Positions 16,011 through 25,905 of a DNA stretch of 64,000 nt are shown one piece after another. Positions within the stretch are counted from its first letter, which is position 1, and each line of letters opens with the position of its first letter. Made by a program: the position numbers and the translations under genes. The stretch is from Rhodoplanes tepidamans. Its GTDB lineage: Bacteria > Pseudomonadota > Alphaproteobacteria > Rhizobiales > Xanthobacteraceae. The notes beneath the pieces were generated by a model that saw only the letters and a program-made list of their open reading frames with translations, made no database searches and was not told the origin of the DNA. The DNA is taken from NCBI RefSeq assembly GCF_030813915.1, contig NZ_JAUSUJ010000001.1, forward strand, positions 310,001 through 374,000. The letters run 5' to 3'.

Positions 16011-16261
16011 CTTTAATCCCTCCTCTTTGGACCGATGGACGCCAGAACTGCCCGTCACATAGACGATTCTCGCGCCTTGGCCAGCGCCAAATGGGAGAAA
16101 CGCCCATGTTTTAGGGGTTTTCACGGGGTCTGATAGCGATTCGCCCCGCGCCGCAGGCGTTTTCGCGCCCCTTCGGTGGCGAATTCCAGCCCTGATCGCG
16201 CCCCTGCGATGCCCGCTTGACTTCGTTCGGGAGGGGCCCTAGGAGAACGGCTCCGAAGTTC

Positions 16262-16338
<77 letters not shown>

Positions 16339-16546
16339 GCCGGACATCGGAATTTTCCTACATCCAGGACGTGGCCGCAGCGGCCGGACCGCTATCGGCC
16401 GGTCGCGCCGAACGCGGATCCCGCAGCCGCCGCCGCACGCGACGTGATCGTCGCGTCTCGTCAGGTCCCGGCGTCACGGCCGTCTCGGCCGCCGGGACCG
16501 TCCTCCGTCGGACGCTGCGCATGCGGCCACCGACGAGCCGCCCATG

Positions 16547-16579
16547 AAAAAACGGCGGCGGGCGGTCGGCCCGTCGCCG
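16547..16579 (-). terminator. Rho-independent terminator after the Bug protein gene
   Basis: On the minus strand a GGCGACGGGC/GCCCGCCGCC stem (one mismatch) is followed directly by six T residues. It lies 25 bases past the stop of the gene ending at 16605. Confidence 0.7.
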
Positions 16580-16604
16580 TGAGGCGTGCCGCAGGCGGAG
16601 GCGC

Positions 16605-17615
16605 CTACTTCTTCTCGATGCCGGCCGCCGCGACCACCTTGGCCCACTTGGCGACCTCGCGGGCGATGCGGGCCCGGAAGTCGTCGACCGAGCAGCCCTG
16701 CGCCGCCATGCCGTACTTGGTGCTGGCGGCCTGGATGTCGGGCAGGGCGACCACCTCGTTGACGGCGCGGTTGAGCAGGGCGACGATTTCGGGCGGCGTC
16801 GCGGCCGGTGCGGCGAGGCCGTTCCAGCTCGTCACCTCGTAGCCCGGCAGGCCGCTCTCGGCGACCGTCGGCACGTCGGGCAGCGACGGCGCGCGCGTCG
16901 TCGCGGTCGTCGCCAGCGCGACGATCTGGCGCTCCTCCAGCGGTCCCTGCAGGGCGGCCTGGTACTCGAACAGCACGTCGACGTCGCCCTGGATCATCGC
17001 GGTGACGAGCTGCGGCGTCGTCTTGAACGGGATCGCCGTCACCGTGATGCCGGCCATCGACTTGAACAGCTCGCCGGCCAGGTGCTGGTTGCTGCCCGGA
17101 TTGATCGAGCCGAAGTTCAGCTTGCCGGGCGACGCCTTGGCCGTGGTGATGACGTCCTGTACGGTCTTCAGCGGCGATCCCGCCTTGGTGGCGATCACCA
17201 GGCCGTAGGCGGCCGTGGTGGAGATCGGCACCAGGTCGCGCTCGAGATCGTAGGGCAGCGACTTGAACAGCGACTTCGCCGCCGTCAGCCCGCCGCCGAT
17301 CATCGCCAGCGTGTAGCCGTCCGGAGTCGAGGCGACCACCGAGTTGATGCCGATCACGCCGGCGGCGCCGGGGCGGTTGTCGATGATGAACTGCTGGCCG
17401 AGCTTCTCGGACAGCTTCTGGGCCACCATCCGCATGGTGACGTCGGCGATGCCGCCGGCCCCGTACGGGACGATGATGCGCACCGGCCGGTTGGGGTAGC
17501 CGGCCTGGGCGCGTGCCGTCGTCGGCACGGCCCCGGCGAGCGCCGCGGCGAGGCCGCCGAGCATCAGGCGGCGCCGGTCCGGGCGGAGCGGGCTGGAGAC
17601 GGGGCCTGGGGTCAT
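16605..17615 (-). CDS. Bug/TTT-family tripartite tricarboxylate transporter substrate-binding protein
   Basis: The 336-residue periplasmic binding protein has a Tat-like signal peptide (RPDRRRLMLGGLAAALAGAV, cleavage near ARAQ). The TctC/Bug family core follows: YPNRPVRIIVPYGAGG, LGQQFIIDNRPGAAGVIG, TPDGYTLAMIG and PDVPTVAESGLPGYE. Bug proteins bind carboxylates and deliver them to TctAB membrane proteins, but no tctA/tctB is near. It is probably co-transcribed with the upstream amidohydrolase (56-bp gap). A GGAGGA ribosome-binding site supports the start. The ligand is unknown, perhaps the amidohydrolase substrate or product. Confidence 0.92.
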   Translation of the reverse strand: MTPGPVSSPLRPDRRRLMLGGLAAALAGAVPTTARAQAGYPNRPVRIIVPYGAGGIADVTMRMVAQKLSEKLGQQFIIDNRPGAAGVIGINSVVASTPDGYTLAMIGGGLTAAKSLFKSLPYDLERDLVPISTTAAYGLVIATKAGSPLKTVQDVITTAKASPGKLNFGSINPGSNQHLAGELFKSMAGITVTAIPFKTTPQLVTAMIQGDVDVLFEYQAALQGPLEERQIVALATTATTRAPSLPDVPTVAESGLPGYEVTSWNGLAAPAATPPEIVALLNRAVNEVVALPDIQAASTKYGMAAQGCSVDDFRARIAREVAKWAKVVAAAGIEKK

Positions 17616-17671
17616 GTCTTCCTCCGGAGATCGTTGTCGGCCGGGGCGCCGCCGGCGCCCGTGAGCGTCGG

Positions 17672-18538
17672 TCAGGCGGTGACGGGCTCCGCCGCGAGGG
17701 CGGGATAGAGGCGCCGGGCCGTGCCGGCGAAGATGCTGGCGCGGTCGGCCGCGGAGAGGCAGGAGAGGGCGGCGCGGGCGGCGTCCAGGATGCGGCTCAT
17801 CGGGCCGGCCTCGGCCGGAAAGTTGGAGCCCCAGGCGATGCGCTCCGCCCCGAAGGCGGCGACGAGCCGGGGGAAGAACGCCTCCGGCCGCGACGCGCCG
17901 GCGGCGGCTTCGCGCACCGTGCGGCTGGTCAGCTTGAGGACGACGTTCGGCCGGTCGGCGAGGCGCCACAGCCAGTCGGCCTTCTCGTAGGGGGCGCCGT
18001 CCGAGAGGTCGACCCGGGCGAGATGGTCGAGCACCACGGGCACCCGGCGGAAGCGGTCGAGCAGGAGGGCGAGCTGGTCGACGCCCTCCGGCCGCATCTG
18101 CACGCAGACCGGCAGGTTGGCCGCCTCGGCCCGTTCCCAGATCGGGAAGCTGCGCGGATCGGCGAGCCAGCCGGCCTGGCCGGGCTGGGTGGTGCCGGTG
18201 GTGAACAGGCGCAGTCCGGTGAGCCCCTTCGCCACCCAGCGGTCGAACACGGCCGGCGCGTCGGGCGCGAACAGATCCATCGAGAACACGCCGGTGAAGC
18301 GGTTCGGGTGCGCCGCGACCGAGTCGGCCAGATAGGAATTGTCGAAACCGTAGGCGGTCGAGGCCTGCACGACGGCGGCCTTGGCGACGCCGGCCTCGTC
18401 CATCGCGGCGATCAGGTCGGCGGCCGTGGTCGGCCGGGCATGCGACCAGTCCGACTGCTTGCCGCCGAGCGGCGCCAGCGGGTAGCGCGCCGTATCGGGC
18501 GAGATCACATGCGTATGGATATCGATAATGTCGGTCAT
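17672..18538 (-). CDS. Amidohydrolase-2 family metal-dependent hydrolase
   Basis: The 288-residue TIM-barrel protein of the amidohydrolase-related (PF04909) family begins with the metal-binding IIDIHTHVISPD (His-x-His). Later elements include VVQASTAYGFDN, GLRLFTTGTT, the VVLDHLARVDLSDG region (His) and AWGSNFPAE (where members have WGSDFP). The catalytic Asp expected in WGSDFP is Asn here, which may alter or weaken metal binding. The family includes lactonases (4-sulphomuconolactone, PDC hydrolase) and decarboxylases of the ACMSD type. It shares an operon with the Bug protein and is divergent from the double-HTH LysR gene, its likely regulator. Confidence 0.85.
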   Translation of the reverse strand: MTDIIDIHTHVISPDTARYPLAPLGGKQSDWSHARPTTAADLIAAMDEAGVAKAAVVQASTAYGFDNSYLADSVAAHPNRFTGVFSMDLFAPDAPAVFDRWVAKGLTGLRLFTTGTTQPGQAGWLADPRSFPIWERAEAANLPVCVQMRPEGVDQLALLLDRFRRVPVVLDHLARVDLSDGAPYEKADWLWRLADRPNVVLKLTSRTVREAAAGASRPEAFFPRLVAAFGAERIAWGSNFPAEAGPMSRILDAARAALSCLSAADRASIFAGTARRLYPALAAEPVTA

Positions 18539-18660: not shown

Positions 18661-19860
18661 GTGGAGGACACGAGGCTCGGCCGCCTGCGCGCCTTCCACC
18701 AGGTGGCGACGGCGGGCGGCATGACGGCGGCGGCCGGGGCCCTGCACCTGACCCAGCCGGCGGTCAGCCGTGCCGTGCGGGCCCTGGAGGCGACCCTCGG
18801 CACCGCGCTGCTGGAGCGGCGGGGCGACGGGGCGGTGCCGACCGCCGAGGGACGGGTGCTGGCGGTGCGGACGGCGCGCTTCTTCGCCCAGATCGCGGCG
18901 GCGATCGGCCAGGCGACGGGGCGGGATCCGGCCGGCGACGCAGTGGTGCGGATCGTCCGGTCGCTCGGCGACGCGCATCTGCGCAGCCTCGCGGCGATCC
19001 GTACGGCGCAGACGTTTCGCCGCGCGGCAGCGTCGCTCGGCGTCGCCGAGCCGACCCTGCACCGGGCGGCGCGCGATCTCGAGCATCTGCTCGGCGTCGC
19101 GCTCTATCGCCGGACGCGGGACGGGATCGGCCTGTCGCCCGCCGGCTCGGAGCTCGCCCGCCGGCTCGCGCTCGCCGCCGCCGAGATCCGGGCGGCGCGC
19201 GAGGAGCTCGATCTGCGGCGCGGCAGCGCCGCCGCCACCGTCGCGATCGGGGTGCTGGCGCTGGCGCCGGCCCGCCTGGTGGCGCGCGCCGGCGAGGCGG
19301 TGCTGCACCGGCGTCCCGGCGTCCGGGTGACGATCCGCGAGGCGCCGTACGCGGCGCTCGCCGCCAGCCTGCGCGGCGGCGATCTCGATCTGGTGTTCGG
19401 GGCGCTGCGGGCGCCGCCGCCGTTCGACGATCTGGTCGAGGAGCCGCTGTTCGAGGATCCGTACCGGATCGCCTGCCGGCGCGGCCACCCGCTCGCCGGC
19501 CGGCCGGGGCTCACCCCCGCCGATCTGCGGCCCTACGGCTGGGTGGTGCCGACCGCCAGCCTGCCGCGGCGCGCCGTCATCGACCGCATGGCGGCCGAGT
19601 GGGAGCTGCCGCGGCGCGGCGCCATCGAGGCGGACTCGCTCGGCGGCATCGTCGCCGTGCTGGCGGAGAGCGACCGGCTCAGCCTGCTGCCGCGGGCCGG
19701 CGTCGCCAGCGAGGACGGGCCGGGCGGGCTCGCCTCGCTCGACCTGCCGATTCCGCATCCGCGCCGGGTGGTCGGCCTCACCACCCGGGCCGACTGGCTG
19801 CCCACCGCCGTGCAGGCGGAGTTCCTGGACCGGCTGCGCGCGGTGTCGCAGAACGCATGA
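18661..19860 (+). CDS. LysR-family regulator with two N-terminal winged-helix domains
   Basis: The 399-residue, GTG-initiated protein is about 100 residues longer than usual LysR regulators (around 300). The first HTH, residues 8-66, has ALHLTQPAVSRAVRALEATL. A second complete HTH_1-like domain, residues 107-165, reads FRRAAASLGVAEPTLHRAAR and continues HLLGVALYRRTRDGIGLSPA. The LysR effector domain follows from about 190 (TVAIGVLALAPARLV; GDLDLVFGAL). The extra domain is in frame and full-length, so it is not an annotation artefact of a fused reading frame. The gene is divergent from the amidohydrolase-Bug operon, its probable target. Confidence 0.9.
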   Translation: MEDTRLGRLRAFHQVATAGGMTAAAGALHLTQPAVSRAVRALEATLGTALLERRGDGAVPTAEGRVLAVRTARFFAQIAAAIGQATGRDPAGDAVVRIVRSLGDAHLRSLAAIRTAQTFRRAAASLGVAEPTLHRAARDLEHLLGVALYRRTRDGIGLSPAGSELARRLALAAAEIRAAREELDLRRGSAAATVAIGVLALAPARLVARAGEAVLHRRPGVRVTIREAPYAALAASLRGGDLDLVFGALRAPPPFDDLVEEPLFEDPYRIACRRGHPLAGRPGLTPADLRPYGWVVPTASLPRRAVIDRMAAEWELPRRGAIEADSLGGIVAVLAESDRLSLLPRAGVASEDGPGGLASLDLPIPHPRRVVGLTTRADWLPTAVQAEFLDRLRAVSQNA

Positions 19861-19911: not shown

Positions 19912-20448
19912 TCAGGCGACCAGCCGGCGGCCTTCGATCAGCCGCATGTCGAGGACGTCCTCGGGCTTCATCGGGATCAGGGCGACCCCGACGTCGCGCT
20001 TGTAGCCGTTCCAGCGGGCGGTCTCGGCCTCGGTGCCGAAGCCGGCCTCGACCTTCTTGCCGACGGTGGCGAAGTCGCCCGGCAGCAGTCCTTCGCGCAC
20101 CCACAGCGCGACCGCGCCGCACGGGCGGTGGACCTCGAAGGCGAAGCGGCCGAACGGCGAGGCCGGGCCGTGCGCCAGCGTCTGGTCGACGACGAGGCGC
20201 CGGCGCGACAGCGCCCGGGTCATGAACTCGAACGAGTCGATCAGGCCCGGCGGGTTGAGGCCGGCCACGATGGCGATCTCGTCGCGATGCGGGACGCCGG
20301 TGCCCGGAAAGGCGTCGAAGGCGCGCTGCAGCACCTTCATCGAGAGGACGACGCCACCGAAATGGTCCTTGTCGTGGAAGGACTCGAGGTCGTCGAGCGT
20401 GATGTCGAGCTCGCCGGCGTAGTCGCGCAGCTTGATGGACAGGGTCAT
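19912..20448 (-). CDS. FmdE-like protein A (last gene of the seven-gene operon)
   Basis: The 178-residue cytoplasmic protein has no signal or membrane segment. It is a paralogue of the next gene upstream. Both share F-H-x3-H-x-G-G-V-x5-K-V-L-x2-AF (here His25, His29), a DEIAIVAGLNPPGLIDSFEF strand-helix, an ALSRRRLVVDQ segment and FAFEVHRPCGAVALWVREG. This order resembles the FmdE fold of formylmethanofuran dehydrogenase-linked proteins (HGHxCPG, then a Cys-containing helix and GK motif). The ligand Cys residues of that family are absent. It starts 17 bp after its paralogue ends. The assignment to FmdE is by pattern only; function unknown. Confidence 0.72.
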   Translation of the reverse strand: MTLSIKLRDYAGELDITLDDLESFHDKDHFGGVVLSMKVLQRAFDAFPGTGVPHRDEIAIVAGLNPPGLIDSFEFMTRALSRRRLVVDQTLAHGPASPFGRFAFEVHRPCGAVALWVREGLLPGDFATVGKKVEAGFGTEAETARWNGYKRDVGVALIPMKPEDVLDMRLIEGRRLVA

Positions 20449-20465
20449 GACAGGTCCTTTCCGGC

Positions 20466-20996
20466 TCAGCCGTGCACCACGGGGCCGATCTCGAACAGAT
20501 CGCAGGCGGGCGAGGTCATCACGCGCTCCGCCATCTCGTGGCGCAGCGCGTCGAAGCGGGCCACCTCGGCCTCGCTGGCGAGCCCGCCCGACGTCTTGGA
20601 GGCGAGCGCCAGGAACTCACCGGTCAGCGTGCCGTCCTTGAGCCACAGGCTCACCGACGTCCCCTTGTAGTGGACCTCGAAATAGAAGTGCTCGCCGCAC
20701 ACCGGCTGGCCCTTCTTGGCGCCGCGGTCGATGATGGCGCGCTGCCGGCTGAAGGCGCGGGTGGCGCATTCGAGGCCGTCGACGACGCCCGGGCCGTCGA
20801 CGCCGACCACCACCTGGATGCGGCTGCGCTCCGGCGGCTCGCCGGGCGACACCAGCGGGAAGGCCGTCTCCAGCACCTTGTAGGCGACCGCGACGCCGCC
20901 CGGATGGGGGCCGCCGTGAAACCTCAGCATCTGCTCGTAACTGATGGCGACGCGGTTCTGCTTCAGACCGCGCATCTCGAGAACGTGCTGCGTCAT
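20466..20996 (-). CDS. FmdE-like protein B
   Basis: The 176-residue protein contains FHGGPHPGGVAVAYKVLETA (His27, His31). This resembles the FmdE start HGHxCPG but lacks the Cys. RIQVVVGVDGPGVVDGLECA (Cys77), AFSRQRAIIDRG and GEHFYFEVHYKGTSVSLWLK follow. It aligns along its whole length with the gene ending at 19912, so the pair arose by tandem duplication. It retains Cys77, Cys100 and His103, which the other copy lacks, so the two may bind different metals or partners. It lies 53 bp after the NnrS-family gene. No function is established. Confidence 0.72.
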   Translation of the reverse strand: MTQHVLEMRGLKQNRVAISYEQMLRFHGGPHPGGVAVAYKVLETAFPLVSPGEPPERSRIQVVVGVDGPGVVDGLECATRAFSRQRAIIDRGAKKGQPVCGEHFYFEVHYKGTSVSLWLKDGTLTGEFLALASKTSGGLASEAEVARFDALRHEMAERVMTSPACDLFEIGPVVHG

Positions 20997-21049
20997 CGTC
21001 TCTCCTTTCGAGAAAATCGAAGCTGTCGTGACAATCGGAGCGTCTCGTC

Positions 21050-22246
21050 TCATCCCGGCTTGCCGTCCACGCGGGGCGCCAGGAGCCAGGGGCCGAACAC
21101 CGCGAGCCAGGCGAGAAAGCCGCCGGCCCACAGGGCGCTCGGCAGCACCACGCCGAGCATCGGCATCGCCTCGGGGGCGATCTCGGGCACCGCGACGCGG
21201 GCGACCGTCGCGGCGACGATCAGGGCGGGGGCGATCCACACGGCGCGCGGCAGCGGGAAGCCGCGGCCGGTGTGGCGCAGCGACACGACCGACATCACCG
21301 TCACGACGGTGAGCGAGGCGGCGCCCATGCCGAGCAGGTGGCGCAGGCCGGTCGGATCGAAGGGCGCGCCCAGCCCCGCGGCGCCGAGCCCGGCGAGGCC
21401 GGCCGCCATGAAGCCCTGCGCCAGGTAGAACAGCAGCACCTGCGGCCGCCATAGCGCAGCGCCGCGGTGCAGCTCGACCATGCGGTCGAGCTGGGCGCAG
21501 GCGGCGGCGAGCGCGATCCAGCCGGTCACCGGGTCGCGCGGCGCCACCGTGTCGGCGATCGCGAACAGGACGAGGGTCGCGGCGGCGAAGTGGCGGCGTC
21601 CGGGCGACAGGCGCGGCGGCCCCTTCTGCCCGGTCTCGTGAAGCGCGGCGCCGAGCGTCACCGGCAGGATGCGGCCGAGCGCCAGCGCGATCGCCACCAG
21701 CATCAGGTCGAGGCCGAGCACCACGGCGGCGTCCGGCGTGCCCGGCATCGCGCCGAGCCGCGTCATGTGGAACCAGACGTTCGCGGCCAGCACCCCGATC
21801 ATCACCAGGCCGAGATCGACCGGCCGGCGGGTCGCCGTGGCGAGCGCCGGCAGCGCGCTGCCGAACACGGCCGGCAGGAAGGCGAGGTCGGCCAGCGCGA
21901 CGAGCGAGGCCGGCAGGATGCCGTCGAGCCAGAAGGCGATGCGGCCGGCGAGCCAGACGAGCACCAGGGCGGCGAGCCGCCGGCCCGTCACCGGCGGCGT
22001 GCCGGTCCAGCTCGGGAAGGCGGTCAGGGCGAAGCCCGCCATCGCGGCGGCGAGGCAGCCGAACACCTGCTCGTGGGCGTGCCATGCCGCACTGCCGACC
22101 GTGCCGGCACCGACCAGCCCGGTCCAGATCACGGGCAGCGGCAGCACGGCGGCGACCGCGGCGACCGGCACCAGCAGGAAGAACGGCCGGAACGCATAGG
22201 CGAGCACGACCCCGCCGGCCCGGCTCTGCTCCCCCGGCGGTCTCAT
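21050..22246 (-). CDS. NnrS-family polytopic membrane protein
   Basis: The 398-residue protein has about twelve hydrophobic segments. The NnrS hallmark is present: AYAFRPFFLL near the N-terminus, then WHAHEQVFGCLAAAMAGFAL (conserved His-x-His), FPSWTGTPPVTG and later LRHLLGMGAASLTVVTVMS. NnrS was defined in Rhodobacter nitric-oxide-responsive regulons as a haem- and copper-containing membrane protein that relieves nitrosative stress, but its biochemistry is unsettled. Here its start overlaps the ABC ATPase stop (ATGA). That coupling to an importer operon is unusual compared with the nor/nir setting in which NnrS was described. Confidence 0.85.
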   Translation of the reverse strand: MRPPGEQSRAGGVVLAYAFRPFFLLVPVAAVAAVLPLPVIWTGLVGAGTVGSAAWHAHEQVFGCLAAAMAGFALTAFPSWTGTPPVTGRRLAALVLVWLAGRIAFWLDGILPASLVALADLAFLPAVFGSALPALATATRRPVDLGLVMIGVLAANVWFHMTRLGAMPGTPDAAVVLGLDLMLVAIALALGRILPVTLGAALHETGQKGPPRLSPGRRHFAAATLVLFAIADTVAPRDPVTGWIALAAACAQLDRMVELHRGAALWRPQVLLFYLAQGFMAAGLAGLGAAGLGAPFDPTGLRHLLGMGAASLTVVTVMSVVSLRHTGRGFPLPRAVWIAPALIVAATVARVAVPEIAPEAMPMLGVVLPSALWAGGFLAWLAVFGPWLLAPRVDGKPG

Positions 22247-23025
22247 CGCGACGCCTCCGGCTCGACGGCGAGCGCCCTGGCGGTCGCCGGATCGGCGAGC
22301 AGGCGGCCGACCTCGGCATGGACGAAACCGTCGTCGCGCGCCGCGTGCGGCACCGCGATGTCGTGCAGGGCGGCGACCCGGGCCGGCCGCGGCGACAGCA
22401 CGACGATGCGGTCGGCCATCCGCACCGCCTCGGCGAGATCGTGGGTCACCAGCACCGTGGTGAGGCCGCGGGCGTCGATCAGCCGCTGCACCAGCGCCTG
22501 CATCTGGCGGCGCAGGCCGACGTCGAGCGCGCTGAACGGCTCGTCGAGCAGGACGAGGTCGGGGTCGATGGCGAGCGCGCGGGCCAGCGCCACGCGCTGA
22601 CGCATGCCGCCGGAGAGCTCGTGCGGAAACTTGTCGCCGTCGTCCTCCGACAGGCCGACGATGCCGAGCAGCCTCTCGGCGCGCGCGTCGCGCTCGGTCC
22701 GGCCCATCGGCAGCGCCTTGAGGCCGAAGGCGATGTTCTGGCGCGCGTCGCGCCAGGGCAGCAGGCAGGGGTCCTGGAACGCGAAGGCGGGCCGCACGAA
22801 GGCGTGGACGATGCGGCCCTGGTCGGGTCGCGACAGGCCGCCGATCATCGCGAGCAGCGTGCTCTTGCCGCAGCCGGACGGGCCGATCAGGCAGCCGACC
22901 TTGCCGGCCGGCAGGGCGAAGGAGACCTCGGTCAGCACCGGCTCGGGCCCGAAGGCGTGCGACACGGCCTCGACGACGAGGCCGGGGGACGATGTCGCGG
23001 CGGTGCTGTCGGGTGCCGGCGTCAT
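22243..23025 (-). CDS. ABC transporter ATP-binding protein (NitT/TauT type)
   Basis: The 260-residue ATPase has Walker A IGPSGCGKSTL (about 47-57), Q-loop AFQDPCLLPWRD, signature HELSGGMRQRVALARAL (about 135-150), Walker B LVLLDEPFSALD and H-loop VLVTHDLAEAV. The sequence is closest in style to SsuB/NrtD/TauB ATPases. It starts 5 bp after the permease stop and its stop overlaps the NnrS-family start. It energises import by the two binding proteins and permease of the same operon. The substrate is unknown. Confidence 0.93.
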   Translation of the reverse strand: MTPAPDSTAATSSPGLVVEAVSHAFGPEPVLTEVSFALPAGKVGCLIGPSGCGKSTLLAMIGGLSRPDQGRIVHAFVRPAFAFQDPCLLPWRDARQNIAFGLKALPMGRTERDARAERLLGIVGLSEDDGDKFPHELSGGMRQRVALARALAIDPDLVLLDEPFSALDVGLRRQMQALVQRLIDARGLTTVLVTHDLAEAVRMADRIVVLSPRPARVAALHDIAVPHAARDDGFVHAEVGRLLADPATARALAVEPEASR

Positions 23026-23030
23026 GCGCG

Positions 23031-23852
23031 TCAGATCCCCGGCATGTCGCGCGCCTCGGCGCCCGGCAGCTCGCGCCGCCAGGTGAGCAGGCGGCGGCGC
23101 AGCGGCTCGAGCAGCAGGTACTCGATCGCGAGCAGCAGCGCGACGACGACCAGGATCCAGGCCATCGCCTTGACGGTGTCGACCTGCACGCGCGCCGTGG
23201 CGAGCCCGTCGCCGATGCCGCCGGCGCCGCTCAGGAGCTCGGTCATCACGGCGATCTTCCACGACAGGGCGAGCGCGGTGGCGACCGCCGGGAACAGGTA
23301 GGACAGCATGTGCGGCAGGTAGACGTCCCACACCAGCACGCGGCGCGGCACCCGGAAGGCGCGCGCCATCCGGCGCAGCGCGCCGTCGAGGCTGCGCACG
23401 CCCTCGGCGGCGCTGGCGAACACGATCGGTGCGCTCGTCACCAGCACCGTGAACACGACCGCGAGCCCCGAGCCGCCGAACCACAGCAGCGACAGCACCA
23501 CCCAGGCGATCGCCGGGATGCCGAGCATCAGGGTGGCGATCGGCGCCAGGAGCCGCCGCATCATGTCGGAGAGGCCGGCGAGCGCACCCAGCGCGCCGCC
23601 CACCACCACGCCGCCCAGAAACCCGACCAGCGCGTTGCGGCTGGTCTCGACCACGGCCGGCCACACCCGGCCGTCGAGCGTCATCCGCCACAGCGCCGCG
23701 AAGGTCTCGCGCGGCGACGGCAGCACCAGCGTGCCGTAGGCGGCGTGGCCCGCCTCCCACAGCGCGACGAGCAGCAGCAGGCTGGCGGCGGCACCCCAGC
23801 CGCCCCACACGTAGTCGAGCGCCTGGGCGAGCCGCGCCCGCAGCGTGATCAT
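23031..23852 (-). CDS. ABC transporter permease (NitT/TauT type)
   Basis: The 273-residue inner-membrane protein has six predicted helices. The EAA loop of this class reads EGVRSLDGALRRMARAFRVP, followed by LVWDVYLPHMLSYLFPAVAT; WKIAVMTELLSGAGGIGDGL matches the SsuC/NrtB family. Its start codon overlaps the stop of the second binding-protein gene (ATGA), so the cistrons are translationally coupled. It forms the channel of the importer. Only one permease gene serves two binding proteins, so it probably works as a homodimer. Confidence 0.93.
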   Translation of the reverse strand: MITLRARLAQALDYVWGGWGAAASLLLLVALWEAGHAAYGTLVLPSPRETFAALWRMTLDGRVWPAVVETSRNALVGFLGGVVVGGALGALAGLSDMMRRLLAPIATLMLGIPAIAWVVLSLLWFGGSGLAVVFTVLVTSAPIVFASAAEGVRSLDGALRRMARAFRVPRRVLVWDVYLPHMLSYLFPAVATALALSWKIAVMTELLSGAGGIGDGLATARVQVDTVKAMAWILVVVALLLAIEYLLLEPLRRRLLTWRRELPGAEARDMPGI

Positions 23853-24895
23853 CCGGTGCCTCCCCAGTAGAACCGGGCGGGCGGCGGTGCGCCGCCGAGC
23901 ACGTTCGGGGCGACGCCGACGAGATCCGCATAATAGCGCTCGATGTCGTCGCGGGCCGCGGCGGCGGTGACGACGTCGAGCCGGAAGTGCGGCAGCGACG
24001 CCTCGACCACGGCGGCGGGCAGCGCCAGCGGCTCGCTGCCGAGCCGGCCGGCCGCTGCCGGGTCGGCCCGCACCCAGTCGACCGCCGCACCGCAGGCCGC
24101 GTGCACGGCCGCGACCAGCTCGGGCCGCGCCTGCAGCAGCGCCTCGCTCGCGGCGAGCCCGGCCTTGGGCAGGCCGCGCGTGCGGCCGGTCAGCGCGCCG
24201 TACACCGCGGTGAGATCGGCGATGCGCCGCATCGGACGGTCGGACTGCGCGGCCCGCATCAGCACCGCGGTGGCGACCGGCTCCGGCACCGCGGCGAGGT
24301 CGGTCTCGCCGGCGAGGAGCTTTCGCGCGGTCTCGGCGGGCGTGGCGACGTAGTCGAGCACCACGTCGCGGTCCGGATCGAGGCCGAGCCGGCGCAGCAC
24401 CAGGCGCAGGATCAGGTCCGGCGCCTCGCCCCGGAACGCCACGGTGACGCGCCGGCCGGCGAGCGCCTCGACCCCCGTGACGGCGGGATCGCGGCCGATC
24501 AGGAACAGCAGCCCCCAGGCCAGCACGCCGACCAGGCGGATCGGGGCGCCGGCGTTGAACAGCGATGCGGCGGCGTCGGTCGGCAGCGCGACGAGGTCGT
24601 AGGCGCCGGTGCGCACGCCGGCGCGCAGCTCGTCGAGGGTGCGCCAGACCTTCAGGGCGGGCGCAGCGACATGCGGCGCGAGCGTGCCCGCCGCGATCCC
24701 CCGGGCGAGCAGCACGGTCGGGGTCGCCGGCATGCCGGCGATCACCAGCCGGTCGAGCCGCGCCGCCGCCGGCGCGGCCGGGTCGGACGCGCCGCTGCGG
24801 CCGACCGCGAGCATCGATGCGACCGCGGCGAGGCCCGTCACCGCGGCGCGGCGGGAGACCGCGCCGGTGCCGTGCGCGCCCGCGCAGGAGCTCAT
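23849..24895 (-). CDS. ABC transporter substrate-binding protein 2 (NMT1/SsuA-like)
   Basis: The 348-residue exported protein has a twin-arginine-like signal (VSRRAAVTGLAAVASMLAVG). The body is a periplasmic binding fold with LVIAGMPATPTVLLARGIA, LKVWRTLDELRAGVRTGAYD, VTVAFRGEAPDLILRLVLRR and an unusual C-terminal RFYWGG. It is clearly paralogous to the gene just upstream (shared GMPATP, KVWRT, FRGDAPDL/FRGEAPDL, FYWG). It overlaps that gene by 4 bases and the permease by 4. The ligand is unknown. Glycine/alanine-rich divergence suggests it may have a different specificity from its twin. Confidence 0.9.
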   Translation of the reverse strand: MSSCAGAHGTGAVSRRAAVTGLAAVASMLAVGRSGASDPAAPAAARLDRLVIAGMPATPTVLLARGIAAGTLAPHVAAPALKVWRTLDELRAGVRTGAYDLVALPTDAAASLFNAGAPIRLVGVLAWGLLFLIGRDPAVTGVEALAGRRVTVAFRGEAPDLILRLVLRRLGLDPDRDVVLDYVATPAETARKLLAGETDLAAVPEPVATAVLMRAAQSDRPMRRIADLTAVYGALTGRTRGLPKAGLAASEALLQARPELVAAVHAACGAAVDWVRADPAAAGRLGSEPLALPAAVVEASLPHFRLDVVTAAAARDDIERYYADLVGVAPNVLGGAPPPARFYWGGTG

Positions 24896-25905
24896 GCGCC
24901 CGGGCCCCAGTAGAACCTGTCGTCGGGCAGCCGGCCGCCCAGGATGTCGGGCGACATCTCCATCAGGGCCGTGAAGTAGTGCTCGAGGTCGGGCCGCGCG
25001 TCGGCGGCCGCGACCACGTCGAGGCGGAAATGCGGGATCGACCGCTCGACCACCGGGGCGCCGAGGTCGAGCGTGGCGGCGCCGAGTCGGCCGGCCTCGG
25101 CCGGATTGTCGAGCACCCAGCGGGCCGCGGTCCGGCAGCCGTCGTGAATCGCGCGGACGATCTCGGGATGCGCCTGGACGAAGTCCTCGCGCACGCCGAG
25201 GCCGGCCTGGGAGATGCGCGGCGGCCGCCCGGTGAGGCGGCCCCAGACGGCGGTGAGGTCGGCCGCCCGCCGCACCTCGATGCCGGCCTGGGCGCCGCGG
25301 ATCTGCGACGCCGTCGCGGCCGGCTCGGAGATCACGGCGAGTGCGGCGCGGCCGGCGAGCAGGAGCTGCACGGCCTCGGTCGGCGTGCCGACATACTGCA
25401 GCTTCACGTCGGTGTCGGGATTCATGCCGAGCTTGCGCAGCGTCATCCGGAAGATCAGGTCGGGCGCGTCGCCGCGAAACGCCATCAGCACCGGCTTGCC
25501 GGCGATGTCCTCGATCTTCTGCACCGCGTCGTCGCGGCTCATCAGATAGAGAAGGCCCCAGGTGACGATGTTCATCAGCCGCACCGGGACGCCGCGGTTC
25601 AGCATGTTGGCGCACGAGTAGGACGGCGTGCCGAACACCGCCATGTCGCCCGACACGACGCCGGCCCGCATCTGGTCCGGGGTGCGCCACACCTTGAGCT
25701 GCACCTTGTCGGCGAACTGCGACAGGGTTCCGGTCTCGACCAGCCGGGCCATCACCACCGACGGGGTCGCCGGCATGCCGTTGATGGTGAGGCTCGCGAG
25801 CTTCGCGGCGGCCTCGGCGCGGCCGGCGAAGAGGCCGGGCAGGAGCGTCGCGGCGCCGGCCGCGGCGAGGCCCGTCAGTGCGTCGCGTCGGGTCGGAAAC
25901 GCCAT
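24892..25905 (-). CDS. ABC transporter substrate-binding protein 1 (NMT1/SsuA-like), first gene of the operon
   Basis: The 337-residue exported protein has the Tat-like signal FPTRRDALTGLAAAGAATLL (cleavage near AEA). Its body includes LTINGMPATPSVVMARLVE, KVWRTPDQMRAGVVSGDMAV, VLMAFRGDAPDLIFRMTLRK and DDRFYWGPGA at the C-terminus. It is of the NitT/TauT/NMT1 class but no known ligand signature was recognised. A GAGGAG ribosome-binding site precedes the ATG at 25905. The 231-bp region up to the divergent exporter gene must hold the operon promoter; I saw no obvious FixK or FNR box in it. Confidence 0.9.
   Translation of the reverse strand: MAFPTRRDALTGLAAAGAATLLPGLFAGRAEAAAKLASLTINGMPATPSVVMARLVETGTLSQFADKVQLKVWRTPDQMRAGVVSGDMAVFGTPSYSCANMLNRGVPVRLMNIVTWGLLYLMSRDDAVQKIEDIAGKPVLMAFRGDAPDLIFRMTLRKLGMNPDTDVKLQYVGTPTEAVQLLLAGRAALAVISEPAATASQIRGAQAGIEVRRAADLTAVWGRLTGRPPRISQAGLGVREDFVQAHPEIVRAIHDGCRTAARWVLDNPAEAGRLGAATLDLGAPVVERSIPHFRLDVVAAADARPDLEHYFTALMEMSPDILGGRLPDDRFYWGPGA

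Follow-up and report, generated by a model that had tools for sequence, protein, structure and literature searches.

A Rhodoplanes operon joining a NitT/TauT-type ABC importer to NnrS and two FmdE-like proteins: a possible route of metal-chelate uptake

Introduction

Importers of the NitT/TauT type are ATP-binding cassette (ABC) transporters, and we know of no metal uptake by this class. NnrS proteins have been described in another setting: Rodionov et al., 2005 (PMC1274295) list nnrS in nitric oxide (NO) regulons, the words 'ABC transport' having zero occurrences in the main text as available, and other papers, in their accessible parts, count NnrS among the cuproproteins (PMC6769254) or state that it shields the iron pool against dinitrosyl-iron formation (PMC11526790, citing Stern 2013). 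Of the FmdE family, the available text of Axelrod et al., 2010 (PMC2954224) reports that PF02663 genes mostly have metal-ion transporters as their neighbors. Here we analyze a putative seven-gene operon that combines all three, found in a stretch of 64,000 nucleotides (hereafter the window) from Rhodoplanes tepidamans (NCBI RefSeq assembly GCF_030813915.1, contig NZ_JAUSUJ010000001.1, positions 310,001 to 374,000 of the forward strand), a genome of 6.86 Mb in 63 contigs. This operon is not described in the open-access literature on NnrS with transport, metals or NO, or on FmdE with ABC transporters, as far as the accessible portions of those papers go.

We propose, with confidence slightly short of even, that the operon is the Rhodoplanes form of a TonB-ABC-NnrS importer that would take up a metal chelate, most likely of iron, under NO or anoxia together with iron shortage. 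What we infer most strongly is an importer whose cargo would have to pass the outer membrane through a receptor; it would be in use when NO is present or oxygen absent, and some members of the family would also respond to iron.

Results

Layout of the operon

The seven genes lie in one direction at 19912-25905, as the original prediction had stated and as both the coordinates and a reading of the sequence confirm; all are on the minus strand. Substrate-binding protein A (24892-25905, 337 amino acids), which has an NMT1/NitT-TauT fold and a twin-arginine-type N terminus, matches the Pfam family NMT1_2 (PF13379) at 39.2 bits against a cut-off of 24.7. It is followed by substrate-binding protein B (23849-24895, 348 amino acids), a paralogue 50% identical to A that matches PF13379 at 33.8 bits, by the permease (23031-23852, 273 amino acids; BPD_transp_1, PF00528, 60.1 bits) and by the ATPase (22243-23025, 260 amino acids; ABC_tran, PF00005, 98.4 bits with a query that began three codons upstream of the likely start). 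The NnrS-family membrane protein (21050-22246, 398 amino acids) matches PF05940 over its full length (profile positions 2-371 of 371) at 246.7 bits, the cut-off being 28. Its residues H56, H303 and H325 are invariant in an alignment of eight homologues, and as a member of this family it is a putative haem/copper protein. The last two genes encode FmdE-like protein 1 (20466-20996, 176 amino acids) and its distant paralogue FmdE-like protein 2 (19912-20448, 178 amino acids), assigned through a PF02663 match below cut-off plus a fold match and through homology, respectively. The predicted junctions were likewise read in the sequence: ATGA start/stop overlaps at 24892-24895 (between A and B), 23849-23852 and 22243-22246, and a 5-base gap at 23026-23030 between permease and ATPase. 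Gaps of 53 and 17 bases, with no overlaps, precede the genes of FmdE-like proteins 1 and 2.

Conservation of the core in relatives

Relatives were collected from named genomes with five aligned binding proteins as the query; of the 331 matches, the best 80 were kept; because the gene caller was crude, neighbors were tallied by tblastn with bit thresholds of our own setting. Within 6.5 kb of the binding-protein gene, a permease is present at 79 of the 80 loci, an ATPase at 76, NnrS at 72 and a TonB-type receptor at 50, and at 69 loci NnrS follows downstream, in the same orientation and no more than 7.5 kb away. Contig ends cut 17 of the 80 loci within 4 kb; among the 63 uncut loci, 59 have NnrS and 39 the TonB receptor. 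The hosts include Azospirillum, Bradyrhizobium, Paracoccus and other Alphaproteobacteria, Azoarcus, Halomonas, Marinobacter, Colwellia and three Campylobacterota assemblies, a range that we take to cover Alpha-, Beta- and Gammaproteobacteria and Campylobacterota. In an even draw from the phylum, the binding protein was found in 10 of 398 genomes at E<=1e-15, the own genome included, and NnrS was aligned at seven of the 11 loci outside the window. By sequence comparison, the binding protein, permease, ATPase and NnrS appear to form the core of a widespread conserved system, of which the window operon is the predicted Rhodoplanes variant, with an extra binding protein and the FmdE-like pair.

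The closest named relative, R. elegans DSM 11907, shares six of the seven genes with the window, 84-95% identical and unchanged in order: those of binding protein A, the permease, the ATPase, NnrS and the FmdE-like pair. Binding protein B is absent. Rhodoplanes sp. Cfx2-03 carries A, B, permease and ATPase but neither NnrS nor FmdE-like genes, and in Rhodovulum sp. PH10 the set consists of a single binding protein with its permease and ATPase, again lacking NnrS. A gene for FmdE-like 1 was found in two of the six genomes of the genus, that of the window included (40 relatives searched), and the FmdE-like pair is joined to the core in only two Rhodoplanes genomes (the window and one of the 80 named loci). 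Because relatives hold differing subsets, the seven-gene set looks like a local assembly, in which the second binding protein is a local duplicate. Because R. elegans keeps six of the seven genes in order and the core is conserved far beyond the genus, the operon nonetheless appears to be more than a chance arrangement. The single unit that had been predicted thus resolves into two layers, a widely kept set of binding protein, permease, ATPase and NnrS and a local addition of the FmdE-like pair and the second binding protein: outside close relatives the order of the core holds, with NnrS nearby in 72 of the 80 loci, whereas that of the full seven does not, FmdE-like genes being found in one of the 80 (R. 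elegans, without binding protein B).

Promoter sites and NO/anoxia context

Regulatory sites were scanned in the 400-base stretch that precedes the predicted start codon of the leading operon gene (n = 80) and in 389 upstream regions of other genes at the same loci. The consensus patterns were general ones, except that for NnrR, which follows the accessible text of Rodionov et al., 2005; site thresholds were fixed after a first look with shuffled sequences, and the p values are indicative. Sites resembling those of FNR/NNR, NnrR or NsrR precede 24/80 operons and 24/389 controls (p 1.9e-8), and Fur- or Irr-like sites 12/80 and 7/389 (p 5.2e-6; 10/80, p 8.7e-5, without loci L068 and L069). Taken singly, the patterns gave 13/80 against 20/389 for FNR (p 0.0013), 8/80 against 2/389 for NnrR (p 1.8e-5), 3/80 against 3/389 for NsrR (p 0.065), 9/80 against 7/389 for Fur (p 3.3e-4) and 4/80 against 0/389 for Irr (p 7.9e-4). 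Symmetric scrambles of the consensus patterns yielded at most 3, 1, 1, 2 and 1 matches against 13, 7, 3, 8 and 3 real ones, a comparison made on the count that uses the start of the tblastn match as gene start (23/80 against 26/397 and 10/80 against 6/397 for the two kinds of site). Both kinds occur together at six loci (L071, L079, L107, L110, L119 and L135); at L110 and L119 the Irr-like site lies directly against an NsrR-like match (2 and 1 mismatches, respectively), and the NsrR-like neighbor at L107 has 6. A RirA-type consensus was also tried and showed no enrichment. These sites suggest that, in relatives, the predicted importer may be controlled by NO/anoxia and, in part of the family, by iron signals.

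Genes resembling norB, norC or norE, or ubiU/ubiD, lie within 9 kb at 10 of the 80 loci. At the reference locus L039, UbiU and UbiV score above their NCBIfam cut-offs and the UbiD- and UbiX-family models are passed; three further genes there we take to be norB, norC and norE, NCBIfam giving distant haem-copper-oxidase matches for two and none for the third. The own genome carries nirK (540.6 bits). The NosZ model PF18764 had no match in it or in any control genome alike, a result uninformative on NosZ.

Next to the operon, a LysR-type regulator with two HTH_1 stretches is encoded at 18661-19860, convergent to it, and proteins of the same cluster occur near the core in L057, L058, L085, L123 and L131.

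Outer-membrane receptors

The receptors tested from relatives differ in kind. Those of the Rhizobiales/Azospirillum type gave weak siderophore- and PqqU-like NCBIfam matches, and those of L040, L045 and L112 haemin-like ones. A third group, present at 15 of the 80 loci by tblastn, has the TonB-copper model TIGR01778 as best match in all seven members tested, five of which come from the 80 loci; they reach 128-222 bits, where the cut-off is 472, and the alignments begin at about profile position 139 or later. The plug domain PF07715 was found at E<=0.01 in none of five third-group receptors and in five of five receptors of other kinds. The plugless barrels nearest to TonB-copper receptors are encoded in L042 (7017-8903), L044 (9462-11381), L059 (6925-8916), L066 (7012-8937) and L099 (7077-8987).

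This group, the counting of NnrS among the cuproproteins (PMC6769254, in its accessible part) and the presence of nirK in the genome are what one would expect if the importer instead carried a copper chelate that feeds NirK, NosZ or NnrS itself during denitrification. We consider this unlikely, given that the TIGR01778 scores stay far from the cut-off, that no plug was found in the five members tested for it, that the other tested receptors match haemin-, siderophore- or PqqU-type models best and that a Fur-like site lies upstream at three loci of the group itself (L061, L064 and L099; doubtful at L068 and L069). Two points favor iron over copper as the imported metal: the occurrence of Fur- or Irr-like sites, also at these three copper-receptor-like loci, and the reported protection of the iron pool by NnrS.

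No receptor was found beside the operon in the own genome. On contig 25, a TonB receptor gene lies divergent from a second nnrS, and its product is 46-53% identical over 622-782 residues to 25 receptors of core loci; it scores 110 bits against the PqqU model, whose cut-off is 1200. From this resemblance, the contig-25 receptor would probably serve the window importer. The intergenic region between it and nnrS held only a 3-mismatch Irr-like match.

Binding protein and cargo

The AlphaFold model of binding protein A (43 sequences) has a mean predicted local distance difference test (pLDDT) score of 91.8. Its closest fold match is 3hn0, followed by PqqT and SsuA; NrtA, CmpA and TauA belong to the same fold family. 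By sequence search, 3hn0 is the sole clear full-length relative (84 bits). Residues W73, R80, P94, G105, P148, E194, P195, A234 and G235 are invariant among the 43 binding proteins. The TAT_signal model reaches 19.5 bits in A, below its cut-off of 22.7, and a loose twin-arginine pattern lies near the N terminus in 68 of the 80 binding proteins; the protein is probably exported in folded form by twin-arginine translocation.

The structure of PqqT with bound pyrroloquinoline quinone (PQQ) superposes on the model with a template modeling (TM) score of 0.73, and PqqU (NF041535) is the first or second NCBIfam match for some receptors, both of which would suit the uptake of PQQ, a quinone-like compound or another organic cofactor, any metal binding then being incidental. 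The chances of such a cargo seem to us small. In sequence, PqqT is a weak match (23 bits, E 2.8e-4) beside the 84 bits of 3hn0, the receptors reach 95-118 bits of the 1200 at which PqqU is called, and iron-type promoter sites would be unexpected; membership in PQQ uptake was rejected on these scores. A small anion (nitrate, nitrite or a small sulfonate) is what the NitT/TauT label would imply, and the fold is indeed common to NrtA, CmpA, SsuA and TauA. We regard this as very improbable: no SsuA/TauA/NrtA-type NCBIfam model reached its cut-off among the matches listed (for the ATPase, the best 25 of 192), the scores being far under it, for example 35 against 163.5 for the SsuA family and 70 against 209 for NtrB, and TonB receptors are unnecessary for small anions. 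A metal chelate remains the cargo that we favor.

The FmdE-like family

FmdE-like 1 scores 22.3 bits against PF02663, just below the cut-off of 22.9, and FmdE-like 2 had no Pfam match at E<=1. The two are 33% identical (E 2.9e-25), and FmdE-like 2 scores 201.7 bits against the alignment profile A3, which includes FmdE-like 2 itself. The FmdE profile had no match among PDB sequences, and a fold model was therefore used. The model of FmdE-like 1 (pLDDT 80.5) matched 2glz at E 9.3e-5, its two chains being the only matches at E<=0.001, then 2gvi at E 2.6e-3, the next standing at E 0.77. FmdE-like 1 is accordingly modeled with the FmdE fold, a circularly permuted thioredoxin-like alpha+beta fold, which FmdE-like 2 is predicted to share by homology; the pair is placed in the family because of this mutual homology and the fold of FmdE-like 1. 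With no signal peptide seen by eye, FmdE-like 1 is taken as cytoplasmic. A recent tandem duplication was considered as the origin of the pair and rejected, in view of the 30-33% identity and the separate long branches of the two in the tree, where their placement is weak (its row L051own, translated out of frame, being disregarded).

The family is rare: FmdE-like relatives were found in eight of 289 genomes of the class at E<=0.001 and four of 398 of the phylum draw at E<=1e-15, the own genome counting in both. Plasmid records holding a relative numbered 35, of which 13 were inspected. In all, 24 FmdE-like loci were inspected, 22 plasmid records and three weak or contig-end class matches being left out, and importer types at unannotated loci were read by eye. 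ABC importers adjoin 19 of the 24. Importers of the NitT/TauT type are found at four (the window, R. elegans, Azospirillum thermophilum and an E. coli plasmid), and 11 have ferric-chelate-type importers with one or two partner proteins of ~205 residues, or a fusion. Three combine importer genes with phn C-P lyase genes, one has a nickel/oligopeptide-type importer, one lies at a phosphonate operon, one in a hydrogenase-maturation operon, and three are without such neighbors.

In only two Rhodoplanes genomes do FmdE-like genes accompany the core, and the gaps of 53 and 17 bases before them are not overlaps, so the pair might simply ride along with an importer whose cargo is unrelated to its own. 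That reading seems doubtful to us: the family is rare, 19 of its 24 inspected loci adjoin ABC importers, R. elegans has retained both genes with 84-86% identity, and at three Magnetospirillum-group loci the ~205-residue partners of FmdE adjoin a core of TonB receptor, substrate-binding protein, permease, ATPase and NnrS. The Magnetospirillum-group loci are a second meeting of the FmdE-partner module with the core. Under the metal-chelate reading, the pair would act on the cargo of the importer.

The neighborhoods of the FmdE-like loci vary. Six E. coli plasmid records hold a relative, and on one of them (L018, 5920-9397) an FmdE-like gene, a permease, an ATPase, a NitT-type binding protein and another FmdE-like gene form a single run. 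In L014, L015, L016 and L048, the FmdE-like gene lies directly upstream of phnG in three and near phnM in the fourth; the three phnG loci also hold ABC importer genes, of ferric-chelate type in L014 and L016, a class unusual for phosphonates. Two ~205-residue proteins, in some cases fused, and an FmdE-like protein recur as a portable set in L013, L049, L050, L051, L152, L153, L155 and L157, attached to ferric-chelate-type ABC importers and once to a nickel/oligopeptide-type one. The label GAT, given to the ~205-residue pair for a resemblance seen by eye, was dropped, Pfam giving sub-threshold DUF4350 for two of these proteins and nothing for a fused one. In L159 (1411-9728), the FmdE-like gene stands between hypA and hypE, with a transporter of nickel/cobalt type (by eye) at the operon end. 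Contig 4 of the own genome (L053, 5463-9594) encodes, between ureA and ureB of the urease genes, a canonical FmdE domain that passes the cut-off with 39 bits; urease is a nickel enzyme.

Discussion

What the analysis shows is the genes themselves, the conservation of the core, its association with TonB receptors, the enrichment of regulatory-site matches in relatives and the FmdE fold of FmdE-like 1; which substrate is carried, how it moves and what NnrS and the FmdE-like proteins do, we infer as follows. A TonB receptor, in the own genome probably that of contig 25, would bring the chelate into the periplasm, where the NMT1-fold binding protein would pass it to the NitT/TauT-type ABC transporter. 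Uptake would be active under iron shortage, in cells that grow without oxygen or meet NO. NnrS, as a haem/copper protein in the same membrane, could keep NO from trapping the metal or could process the chelate, and in the cytoplasm of Rhodoplanes the two FmdE-like proteins may bind the incoming metal or chelate. A more specific form, to which we attach little probability, would make NnrS the inner-membrane partner of a dedicated importer, the two jointly recovering NO-bound iron from a chelate that is perhaps nitrosylated, with NnrS removing or blocking NO; the function of NnrS would then be metal salvage under NO and not NO sensing.

Several results weigh against the proposed importer. NnrS is missing from the gene lists of four of the 11 loci in the phylum draw (own contig 26, one of two in G472, G577 and G416) and from the sets of Cfx2-03 and PH10; no TonB receptor was found near 30 of the 80 loci, and the third receptor group resembles copper receptors best. 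A motif alignment by eye places His, Gly/Lys, His and Gly of the window pair at the ligands His15, His17, Cys19 and Cys55 of 2glz, so that each of the two proteins lacks two of the four metal ligands of FmdE. Iron-type sites precede only 10-12 of the 80 operons, the Fur-like match in L068 and L069 may fall in signal-peptide coding if an earlier start is right, the FNR box is also present in 20 of the 389 controls, and the NsrR result is not significant. Upstream of the window operon itself no site reaches the thresholds, the best NnrR-like and Irr-like matches there having 3 mismatches.

The original prediction saw in the operon the possible transport and handling of a metal-binding or nitrogenous compound. 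Its metal side is borne out in part, since it fits the TonB receptors and Fur/Irr-like sites of relatives as well as the FmdE relatives that adjoin ferric-chelate-type importers and nickel-enzyme genes. For a nitrogenous compound, nothing speaks but the NitT/TauT label, which denotes a fold family. The suggested tie of FmdE to molybdenum or tungsten found little support, genes of this kind not having been systematically searched; two such neighbors were met. At the FmdE-like locus L153, a neighbor is annotated as a molybdate-transport ATPase, without an NCBIfam match at 1e-10, and L037, which is from the same order as the window and has the core without FmdE, encodes the large subunit of an arsenite-oxidase-type molybdoenzyme (16117-17961, 945 bits) several kb from the ABC-NnrS core.

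Should the proposed importer exist, denitrifiers would gain a metal uptake route on an unexpected importer class and FmdE-like proteins a setting in which to be assayed. If NnrS belongs to an import operon controlled by NO and iron, its role becomes directly testable.

Compared with known systems, the operon shares the binding-protein fold and the permease and ATPase families of NitT/TauT-type importers (SsuABC, TauABC, NrtABCD, PqqT); unlike these, its relatives are often tied to a TonB receptor and NnrS, and no NCBIfam cut-off was reached among the matches listed. Its NnrS is a full-length member of the family known from the NsrR, NnrR and DNR regulons, and NO/anoxia-type sites are found in relatives, but the window nnrS sits in an ABC import operon. 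With the FmdE family, FmdE-like 1 shares the fold of 2glz, though under the Pfam cut-off, and of the motif FHGHxC the window pair, read by eye, retains the first His, shows His in place of Cys and lacks the second His; the Cys further along is lost too. TonB-dependent metallophore uptake with FecBCD would work alike, through a receptor, a binding protein, an ABC importer and cytoplasmic handlers, with Fur/Irr-type sites in some relatives; the window importer, however, is of the NitT/TauT class and not of the FecCD/BtuCD class.

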